Origin: Methanobacteriota archaeon
Lineage (GTDB): Archaea; Thermoplasmatota; Poseidoniia; Poseidoniales; Poseidoniaceae
Assembly (NCBI GenBank): GCA_018650165.1
Contig: JABIGM010000019.1
Span: forward strand, 1 to 36,108
Length of the DNA stretch: 36,108 nucleotides
Reading direction: 5' to 3'
The position numbers and the translations under genes were made by a program. Position 1 is the stretch's first letter; every line of letters starts with the position of its first letter. Positions 13,641 through 22,087 of the stretch are shown here, one piece after another. The notes under the pieces were generated by a model. The model did no database searches, was not told the origin of the DNA, and worked only from the letters and a program-made list of their open reading frames with translations.

Positions 13641-13907
13641 ATGTCAGATGACAAGAACCAGACACGCTCCTTCGAGGACAAAGTCCAGGACAAGCAAGAT
13701 GCTATTGAAGCACAATTCCGCAAGATATCTCGCGGAAGCTGGGCTCGTATCATTCGTATGGCTCGAAAGCCTACGCCTCAGGAATTCAAACAAACATCAA
13801 TTATTTGTGGGATTGGACTATTTATCCTAGGTTTTATTGGGTTTGTAATGCTCGTACTGATGGACAATTTCATACCATGGCTTATCCATGATGTATTTGG
13901 TATCTGA
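13641..13907 (+). CDS. secE: Preprotein translocase subunit SecE/Sec61-gamma
   Basis: Short protein with amphipathic RMARKPTPQEFKQTS and a single C-terminal TM; directly upstream of spt5, as is common in archaea. Confidence 0.88.
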   Translation: MSDDKNQTRSFEDKVQDKQDAIEAQFRKISRGSWARIIRMARKPTPQEFKQTSIICGIGLFILGFIGFVMLVLMDNFIPWLIHDVFGI

Positions 13908-13923
13908 TATTGGAGGGGAAATT

Positions 13924-14862
13924 ATGACTGACGCATTTATCGCATTTGTTCGCCACGAAGAGGAATTATTACTTCTTCATCGCTCTAAATCTGATTCAGA
14001 TTCACCAGGCCTTTGGGACGGTGTGTACGGAATTGGAGATACCGAAGAGGATGTACTTAACCGTGTAGCGGAATGTACCGGAATTCCTCTAGAGGATTTG
14101 GAATATGTTCGTGCAGGACCTGCACTTGGAATTGATATCGGAGGCCGTCTACAAGATATTGCTCCATGCCTAGTAGTATCTTCCAGTAAGGAAGTAACTC
14201 CAACAGGCCGTTACACTGAATCGATCTGGGTTGATCCGGGAAACATTGGTTGGGAAGACCGTGAAAATAACAGAACGAGACACCATGTATTCACAGATCT
14301 AGATATGGAAGGTAGCGAGAAATTGTTGCTGGAGATGTATGGTTCAGTTGCTACTTACCTTTACATCGTAAAGACTGCAATTGGTTCAGAGAAGCGCGTC
14401 GCTGATGAAATGAAAGCTCGTTTGATGGGCTCAGGCTCACTTTCAGCACTTAGCGATGATATATTCGGCATTCTTCATCCAACAGGCATGCGTGGATATG
14501 TAATCGTTGAATCCAGCGCTTCACACCATGTTGAGAAGTTAATCGGGCGTTCTGGTGGTCGTGATCCAAAGGCCCGCCGTGGACTAAATCAAACACCTCT
14601 AAAGAACGCAAAGACTGTTCTTCCAGGAGAGGCAGCACTCAAGGATATCCTACCGTACTTAGAGCCAAAGGCAGTTACCAGCGGCATAGAAGTAGGATGT
14701 ATCGTAGAGATTGTAACAGGAGCATTCAAAGGCGAAAAGGCACGTGTTACTAGTGTCGCAGAAACCAAAGAAGAAGTTAGTATGGAGTTGTATGAACAAC
14801 CTATCCCTATGACCCTAAAGATGCGTGGAGATCATGTCCGCGTCGTCGAGAGAGTCGAATGA
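13924..14862 (+). CDS. spt5: Spt5/NusG (NGN + KOW) with an N-terminal degenerate Nudix-like domain
   Basis: C-terminal LYIVKTAIGSEKRVADEM...MRGYVIVESS...GCIVEIVTGAFKGEKARVTSV is NGN+KOW; N-terminal about 135 aa is Nudix-like (ELLLLHRS...PGLWDGVYGIGDTEEDVLNRVAECTGI). Start moved to ATG 13924, preceded by GGAGGGG. Confidence 0.85.
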   Translation: MTDAFIAFVRHEEELLLLHRSKSDSDSPGLWDGVYGIGDTEEDVLNRVAECTGIPLEDLEYVRAGPALGIDIGGRLQDIAPCLVVSSSKEVTPTGRYTESIWVDPGNIGWEDRENNRTRHHVFTDLDMEGSEKLLLEMYGSVATYLYIVKTAIGSEKRVADEMKARLMGSGSLSALSDDIFGILHPTGMRGYVIVESSASHHVEKLIGRSGGRDPKARRGLNQTPLKNAKTVLPGEAALKDILPYLEPKAVTSGIEVGCIVEIVTGAFKGEKARVTSVAETKEEVSMELYEQPIPMTLKMRGDHVRVVERVE

Positions 14863-14940: not shown

Positions 14941-15222
14941 ATGCCAAAGCCTTGGACCAGCCATCTTATCATAAAAGCGCTAGGTGTCAAGAAATGCAAT
15001 GGTAGTCTGGATGCCGCTACTGAGGACTTGAGCCTCGAAAAAGCGATGGACGTCGCTCGCCAAAAGCACAACGACGGCCACTTGACTGGAGCAGACCTGA
15101 AAGCGCAGACCCGTGAGGTCATCGGCACATGTGTGTCAATGCGTGTTAAGATCGATGGACTCTGGGCCAAGGACGCTCTGACCACAATTGAAAAAGGAGA
15201 ATGGGACGAACGATTTGCTTGA
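14941..15222 (+). CDS. rpl11: Ribosomal protein L11, C-terminal domain only
   Basis: 93 aa; TSHLIIKALGVKK...LKAQTREVIGTCVSMRVKIDG matches the archaeal L11 C-terminal domain; the N-terminal PPxGPALG domain is absent; in-frame TAA at 14923-14925 blocks upstream extension. Confidence 0.88.
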   Translation: MPKPWTSHLIIKALGVKKCNGSLDAATEDLSLEKAMDVARQKHNDGHLTGADLKAQTREVIGTCVSMRVKIDGLWAKDALTTIEKGEWDERFA

Positions 15223-15283: not shown

Positions 15284-15928
15284 ATGGAACAGAAAATACA
15301 AGAAGCAATCAAGAACGCTATCGAAGGCGCTCCAGAACGTAAATTTGTTGAATCGTTAGATATGGCATTCACAATCAAAGATGTTGATTTGAAAAACCCT
15401 AACAATCGTATTCAAGAAGAAATCCGCCTACCTGCTGGTCGTGGCAAGCAAATCAAAATTGCAATGTTTGCAGCATCAGATGCTGCAAAGAAAGCAAAAG
15501 ATGCCGGTATCCATGTTATCGATCCATCTGAGATTGAAGAACTTGGAAAGAACAAGGGTAAAGCTAAGAAAATAGCAAACTCGTTTGATTTCTTCCTTTC
15601 AGAAGTCCCTCATATGGGATTGATTGGTCGTTACCTCGGTGTAGTTCTAGGTCCTCGTGGCAAGATGCCCCGTCCAGTTCCACCAGTAGTTGACCCAGCA
15701 GCAATAGCAGCAGGTCTTCAATCCACTACTGTAGTCAAGTCTCGTGACAAGGTTACTTTCCAAACATCGTTTGGAACTCTTGCACAATCTGAAGATGAAT
15801 TATTGAAGAACGCTATGGAAGTTTACACCCGTGTAACATCTCGATTAGAGCGCGGAGTAGGAAACATTCGTTCACTTAACATCAAGACCACAATGGGTCC
15901 AGCAACTAGAGTCGAGGTGGTTAATTGA
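15284..15928 (+). CDS. rpl1: 50S ribosomal protein L1
   Basis: GRYLGVVLGPRGKMPRPVPP and other L1 motifs; located between L11 and L10. Confidence 0.95.
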   Translation: MEQKIQEAIKNAIEGAPERKFVESLDMAFTIKDVDLKNPNNRIQEEIRLPAGRGKQIKIAMFAASDAAKKAKDAGIHVIDPSEIEELGKNKGKAKKIANSFDFFLSEVPHMGLIGRYLGVVLGPRGKMPRPVPPVVDPAAIAAGLQSTTVVKSRDKVTFQTSFGTLAQSEDELLKNAMEVYTRVTSRLERGVGNIRSLNIKTTMGPATRVEVVN

Positions 15929-20767: not shown

Positions 20768-21694
20768 ATGGCGACTGGGTGGGTTATCGATCATCCAGCG
20801 CACGCTCGGCTATTTGCGCCGCTAATGCGTGAGTTATCTTCGACCGATGACATCATCATAGCATGCGATAGAATCGAAGTAAGGGCAATGCTCGAGAATT
20901 GCGATGGACATATGCCTCGTAGACGAATTGTATGGGTGCCACGCCCGGTTGGAAAGGGGCGTTGGCGTAAGGCATGGAAACGCAGGAAGATATCTGGCAA
21001 AGCTCTGAAGGGAGTAGACAAAGTGGTAAGCGTAGGCGCACCGATTGAATTGAGGGCAGCGCCACGTAAAGCAAAACGCATCTACATCACAGATACCGAA
21101 GTAAACCATCTTGCTCATAGATTAGCAAAACCAACAGATATCATAATCCCAACCCATTTTATCGATTCTCTATCTGGTCCACTGATGAATAAGAAAGCAA
21201 AATTTCACAGAATAGATGGCTTGCATGGGCACATTCACCTAAGGCCACAATTGCGTTCGAAAGAGGTAAGAGAACCACCCAAAGTATTGGTGAGAAGATT
21301 GCTTGGAGATGGGATTCATGATAGCGATGAGATATTATCCATTCCTGAAAACTGGTTCGAAGGATTGACAATTCACTATGCTGATGAAAATGAAGTAGAA
21401 GGTAATCCGTGGGATTTAGATCGCACAATTGCCGGCATGGATGGAGTCATTACACAATCGGTAACTATGGCTAGTGAGGCAGTATTACTAGGTTTACCAA
21501 CCCTACTAGTGACCAAAGCAGTACGAGGTTTTATCGACAGGCTAATCGAGGATGGCTATCCATTATTCGTAGTTCGCGAACATGATGAGTCCATTCTAGC
21601 TGCATGGCTCGCAGGTATGCATTTAACAGATGCCATCGAGGTTCCAGATTGGCCAGATACTAAGTCAGAAATGCTTGATTTTATCAAGCATTGA
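20768..21694 (+). CDS. DUF354-like (glycosyltransferase-like fold) protein
   Basis: MATGWVIDHPAHARLFAPLMREL start and C-terminal GVITQSVTMASEAVLLGLPTLLVTK; start moved to ATG 20768. Confidence 0.7.
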   Translation: MATGWVIDHPAHARLFAPLMRELSSTDDIIIACDRIEVRAMLENCDGHMPRRRIVWVPRPVGKGRWRKAWKRRKISGKALKGVDKVVSVGAPIELRAAPRKAKRIYITDTEVNHLAHRLAKPTDIIIPTHFIDSLSGPLMNKKAKFHRIDGLHGHIHLRPQLRSKEVREPPKVLVRRLLGDGIHDSDEILSIPENWFEGLTIHYADENEVEGNPWDLDRTIAGMDGVITQSVTMASEAVLLGLPTLLVTKAVRGFIDRLIEDGYPLFVVREHDESILAAWLAGMHLTDAIEVPDWPDTKSEMLDFIKH

Positions 21695-22087
21695 CATATG
21701 GTCTCCAGCTAAACTCTCTACTTCAGAAATCCGATACCAAGCTGCACTTGCAGCGTCATCCCCAGCAATGGGTTCTTCAAATGCAGCTACAAGATAAGCA
21801 ATTGAAACAATATGGCCCCGAGGGTCCCTTTTTGGGTCCCCCTTTACACAAAGTAATCTGACAACCTTGCCATCAATCCCGCACTCTTCTTTGAGTTCAC
21901 GAATGACAGCAACCTCAGGGTCTTCATCAGACTCGACAAAACCTCCTGGAAAAGCAAGCATTCCTTTCCAAGGCTCATTCTTTCGTCGAATTAGAAGGAC
22001 TTCATCGCCTCGGATAGCGATGGCATCTACTGCTAAAGAGGGTTGAGGCCATTGGCCACAATCATCACAAGCAGCCAAATCACTCAC
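21665..22087 (-). CDS. Nudix hydrolase (ADP-ribose pyrophosphatase-like)
   Basis: Intact Nudix box GFVESDEDPEVAVIRELKEECGI; likely GTG start at 22087 overlapping the UppS stop; N-terminal CDDCG. Confidence 0.85.
   Translation of the reverse strand: MSDLAACDDCGQWPQPSLAVDAIAIRGDEVLLIRRKNEPWKGMLAFPGGFVESDEDPEVAVIRELKEECGIDGKVVRLLCVKGDPKRDPRGHIVSIAYLVAAFEEPIAGDDAASAAWYRISEVESLAGDHMSMLDKIKHF

Follow-up and report, generated by a model that had tools for sequence, protein, structure and literature searches.

To our knowledge, Spt5/NusG is the sole transcription elongation factor that is conserved across all domains of life. The protein considered here, from the archaeal order Poseidoniales, resembles other archaeal Spt5 proteins (TIGR00405) in its C-terminal 173 residues, in the gene order secE-spt5-rpl11-rpl1, in being encoded by a single-copy gene and in being accompanied by Spt4, but differs from them by an extra N-terminal pseudo-Nudix domain of approximately 130 amino acids. 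The Nudix-related transcriptional regulators (NrtR) likewise contain a Nudix-like domain, which in their case senses a ligand in the control of transcription; they are, however, repressors that bind DNA and not general elongation factors.

Nudix domains that have lost their activity have been described elsewhere. The inactive Nudix domain of CCAR2/DBC1, in whose box an arginine is kept, binds NAD+ and acts as a switch for a protein contact; the CCAR2/DBC1 protein itself binds Pol II and connects elongation with splicing (PMC10474295). The likeness to the Spt5 domain lies in the combination of a dead Nudix domain that has a box arginine with a protein acting alongside RNA polymerase in elongation, while the differences are that CCAR2/DBC1 is eukaryotic, contains S1-like, EF-hand and coiled-coil regions, and is a Pol II-associated protein outside Spt5. 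The two Nudix domains are likely to be of independent origin, and CCAR2/DBC1 is the best precedent for the role proposed below for the pseudo-Nudix domain in Spt5. Syndesmos (NUDT16L1), likewise an inactive Nudix protein, can bind RNA (PMC6294507). Both it and CFIm25/NUDT21 share a degenerate Nudix domain with the Poseidoniales protein, which in their case has been reused for RNA binding, yet neither is fused to an elongation factor, and the Spt5 domain, unlike theirs, is strongly acidic.

No fusion of a Nudix domain with Spt5 or NusG is described in the openly available full-text papers that were searched. While Spt5 itself and dead Nudix domains are already known, an Spt5 with an order-wide pseudo-enzyme domain appears, on the strength of that search, to be new.

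The fused spt5 gene and its surroundings

The window, by which is meant the whole stretch of 36,108 nucleotides of Poseidoniaceae DNA that was analyzed, contains on its plus strand the genes secE (13641..13907; PF00584, E 1.6e-4), spt5, rpl11 (uL11, 14941..15222) and rpl1 (uL1, 15284..15928; PF00687, E 2.8e-44), in that order, with secE directly upstream and rpl11 directly downstream of spt5. The spt5 open reading frame (13924-14862, plus strand) encodes 312 amino acids (13924-14859) and is not interrupted, as a preliminary description of this DNA had stated. TTGGAGGGGAAATT stands 5′ of its start codon, ATG 13924, with the ribosome-binding site GGAGGGG located at 13910..13923 on the same strand. 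A longer reading frame beginning at ATG 13888 overlaps secE and has no support among relatives.

Spt5 proper occupies residues 140-312 (14341..14859, plus strand) and consists of an NGN (PF03439) and a KOW (PF00467) domain. Residues 147-310 match TIGR00405 with an E-value of 1.2e-27 and 96.7 bits, against a cut-off of 69.95; the NGN domain scores above its Pfam cut-off (E 3e-9), and the KOW domain slightly below. This is the single copy of Spt5 in the genome to which the window belongs, and an Spt4 gene is present in 30 of 31 relatives. The Nudix part has a median dN/dS of 0.057 over 163 pairs, compared with 0.015 in the Spt5 part, which argues that the Nudix domain is functional and under purifying selection, albeit under weaker constraint than the part to which it is joined.

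Predicted fold and active site of the N-terminal domain

In the window's protein alone, the Nudix character of residues 1-139 (13924..14340, plus strand) is faint: residues 3-110 match Pfam NUDIX below threshold (E 0.021), and a PDB sequence search with the domain alone as query returned chance-level matches only. A profile of the domain reached NADH pyrophosphatase at an E-value of 0.011. Among 51 orthologous domains, 31 match Pfam NUDIX, with a best E-value of 2.5e-6, and no other family recurs in the Pfam scan of this set. An AlphaFold model of the domain, built from the 51 orthologues (pLDDT 84.2, pTM 0.80), has the topology strand-strand-loop-helix(41-52)-strand, and when it was compared with the PDB by Foldseek, the best 50 of 409 matches with E<0.001 were all Nudix-fold proteins, the best having an E-value of 9e-8. 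NudI, MutT, RppH, Ap4A hydrolase and IPP isomerase are among these matches. Fold prediction and sequence homology together confirm that the N-terminal ~130 amino acids belong to the Nudix superfamily, as had been proposed in the preliminary description.

The same description had read the Nudix box as degenerate, with the RE of the consensus changed to NR and the EE to EC, and had suggested that the metal site was lost; the orthologue alignment and a joint alignment with the closest Nudix family, discussed below, bear out both points. The box position, WDGVYGIGDTEEDVLNRVAECTGI (residues 31-54; 14014..14085, plus strand), shows exactly these replacements, and the loop that holds the 'GE' is also shorter. 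Position 47, the catalytic and metal-binding glutamate of active enzymes, is an arginine in 50 of the 51 orthologues, and position 51, the second glutamate of 'EE', is Cys, Ser, Ala or Val, being Cys51 in the window's protein and acidic in none of the 51. In 38 proteins of the closest family, by comparison, both positions are Glu in 38/38, and Glu96 (38/38) and His97 of that family are likewise replaced in the Spt5 domain. The first glutamate of 'EE', position 50, is retained as Glu in 35/51 orthologues and is Asp in 8/51, so that there is a small chance of a weak or altered metal site. The Spt5 domain thus lacks the Nudix-hydrolase signature GX5EX7REUXEEXGU with its metal-binding glutamates.

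Other positions have been kept. The fold residues L16, R20, W31, P81, L83 and W102 are common to the Spt5 domain and its closest family, and D32 and Y97 are invariant, and R47 near-invariant, at or near the former active site; the invariant residues of the domain may be mostly structural. Judged by these alignments, the fold is kept, and catalytic chemistry is predicted to be lost, across the order Poseidoniales. The domain is also acidic, with a net charge of -16 in the window and a median of -13 in the Poseidoniales, as against -3 in the stand-alone proteins of the closest family. The Nudix hydrolase that had been pointed out for comparison elsewhere in the window (21665-22087) is real and possesses an intact box, GGFVESDEDPEVAVIRELKEECGI (PF00293, E 1e-21), but is encoded on the minus strand.

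Distribution of the fusion

Within the family of the window, the Poseidoniaceae, the fusion was matched in 121 of 146 genomes and in all 11 genera. In the order Poseidoniales it was matched in 138/146 genomes and 21/21 sampled genera, which represent two families, and it is present in every one of the 33 genomes that are at least 90% complete. Nearly all of the Poseidoniales matches cover residues 1-312 within one frame, and the fusion also occurs in independently deposited records of Ca. Poseidoniales and Poseidoniaceae, including the MG-II chromosome CM001443.1. As it recurs across 21 genera, and in genomes that were deposited independently, an assembly chimera or a chance reading frame can be ruled out. 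Loss of the domain in some relatives was also considered and rejected, the incomplete matches being mostly short-contig fragments or split frames. Three Poseidoniales loci (L082, L111, L112) have an additional acidic stretch before the Nudix-like domain of Spt5.

Neither the sister order within the same class nor the rest of the Thermoplasmatota that were searched yielded this fusion. Spt5 from the sister order has merely a short acidic tail before the NGN domain, and in the remaining Thermoplasmatota the protein is either short or carries another N-terminal extension. The expectation that archaeal Spt5 measures about 150 amino acids needs to be qualified for this phylum, because many other Thermoplasmatota families possess a different, unrelated extension. 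This extension, of ~100-150 amino acids, occurs in many families (L123, L124, L143, L224-L234, L317, L318, L320-L324) and looks like a beta-sandwich by eye; it gave no significant match to the profiles of the Spt5 Nudix domain or of its closest Nudix family, and no clear Pfam family. A viral source of the Nudix domain was rejected as well: the BFVD matches are generic Nudix proteins, and no relative of the domain was found in viral contigs.

Relationship to a Thermoplasmatota Nudix family

Outside the Poseidoniales, the Spt5-domain profile finds a single place in each of many Thermoplasmatota genomes, with E-values down to 5e-17. These places encode a Nudix family that is here labeled DWEH, after the D-W-E-H motif which its members carry in addition to an intact Nudix box; the proteins either stand alone, at ~135 amino acids, or lie behind an AcnX swivel domain (PF01989). 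In the reciprocal search, a DWEH profile gives its own members ~150-190 bits and the Spt5 domains 31-63 bits despite their lost box, while other Nudix proteins of the window's genome receive 9-35 bits. A tree of 90 rows places the Spt5 Nudix domains as a monophyletic group (support 100) on a long stem inside the DWEH family; as the tree was built by a quick method from 132 columns, it gives this placement without an exact sister, and as the family was itself found with the Spt5-domain profile, it is supporting rather than independent evidence.

By reciprocal score and by tree, the DWEH family is therefore the nearest to the Spt5 domain, but the latter has lost both the motif and the intact box, which makes it a derived offshoot and not a functional member. 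No stand-alone DWEH copy was found in the Poseidoniales by profile searches. Read from sequence, the history was probably a single capture, fusion and inactivation of a hydrolase in the ancestor of the Poseidoniales.

The AcnX swivel domain, annotated DUF126, probably forms the small subunit of phosphomevalonate dehydratase; the DWEH Nudix domain is in this way tied to a probable dehydratase of the archaeal mevalonate pathway. DWEH domains lie in frame behind this swivel domain at L148, L149, L153, L163, L166, L169, L171-L177 and L181, where PF01989 was shown for L163 and the other fusions were assigned by the same sequence pattern. AcnX is also the commonest neighbor family of DWEH genes, albeit at only 10 of 136 neighbor genes, and with the rest of the neighborhood mixed, any substrate proposed for the family is speculative. 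In one sister-order locus (L158, 1382 onwards, plus strand), the DWEH gene adjoins what is by eye an isopentenyl phosphate kinase-like gene, a second hint of an isoprenoid link.

Possible roles of the pseudo-Nudix domain

We consider it fairly probable that a Nudix protein was captured, fused to Spt5 and disabled, and now acts as a non-catalytic binding module that tunes elongation or recruits a factor. In this account, an enzyme of a Thermoplasmatota-wide Nudix family would have been joined in front of Spt5 in the Poseidoniales ancestor and would then have lost its catalytic residues. By homology with other Spt5 proteins, the NGN domain should still dock the fused protein, together with Spt4, on the clamp of RNA polymerase, so that the pseudo-Nudix domain would be displayed on every elongation complex bearing Spt4/5. 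There it would most likely bind a phosphorylated small molecule, a partner protein or both in a remodeled pocket, in which Arg47 stands in place of the metal-binding glutamate, and such binding, without catalysis, would tune elongation or recruit a factor.

A ligand- or protein-binding module on the Spt4/5-RNA polymerase complex is the favored reading. Its narrower form, in which the pocket binds a phosphorylated metabolite of the NAD/ADP-ribose type or an isoprenoid phosphate, draws on the inheritance of that pocket from a family that is fused to the AcnX swivel in other Thermoplasmatota; we regard this metabolite-sensing elongation factor as an unlikely case. Poseidoniales include some of the commonest archaea in surface seawater, and were the idea true, global elongation in these marine organisms would directly follow their metabolic state. 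More generally, an order-wide fusion of single origin between Spt5 and a disabled metabolic enzyme would represent a novel mode of control over general transcription. Its transition from enzyme to regulator is open to stepwise dissection, for the active site is still intact in the closest relatives.

The Nudix fold could instead be purely a docking or scaffold module, offering a surface to a ribosomal, processing or chromatin factor and having no small-molecule ligand. The strong acidity of the domain, the replacement of all catalytic and DWEH-motif residues and a fourfold higher dN/dS than in the Spt5 part agree with such a role, while the conservation of D32, Y97 and R47 suggests that the pocket is still selected; on this evidence we hold a pure scaffold to be possible but rather unlikely. 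The preliminary description had suggested a sensor of a ligand or of RNA ends, and contacts of the pseudo-Nudix domain with the 5′ end or the body of the nascent RNA would be in keeping with the location of Spt5 near the RNA exit path. RppH, a 5′-RNA pyrophosphohydrolase, is among the fold matches listed, and Syndesmos provides a dead Nudix protein that binds RNA (PMC6294507). RppH matches no better than other Nudix proteins, however, the net charge speaks against a broad nucleic acid surface, and the acidic ligands for Mg-pyrophosphate are gone. The role in RNA sensing thus finds no support here and appears improbable, and a partner that is a small molecule or a protein is at least as good a fit.

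These readings concern a fused product, and the fusion would be non-obligatory if a second start at Met138 yielded an Spt5 of standard length. Met138 is conserved, lies directly before the NGN domain and is the only plausible start for such a product, and codon 138 is indeed ATG in 84 of 92 sequences. Yet a Shine-Dalgarno match precedes it in only 3/92, as against 88/92 for codon 1, which makes a separate standard-length Spt5 unlikely. Furthermore, codon 138 encodes leucine in the other 8 sequences, 7 of which (CTC, TTA, CTA) have no start codon there, and the Y139-G140 that follows is invariant. The single product assumed in the preliminary description is accordingly upheld, and two products are highly improbable.

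The adjacent uL11 gene

The rpl11 gene that follows spt5 codes for no more than the C-terminal, RNA-binding domain of uL11 (PF00298, E 4e-11), and the N-terminal domain, PF03946, is absent from it. None of 78 Poseidoniales genomes has a PF03946 match, whereas 18/21 sister-order genomes and 14/14 control genomes do. By these profile searches, a near-universal ribosomal domain is lost across the Poseidoniales. A uL11 without its N-terminal domain was also seen at L019, L089, L101, L104, L113 and L115. Two changes specific to the Poseidoniales, the Spt5 fusion and the uL11 truncation, are thereby found in adjacent genes.
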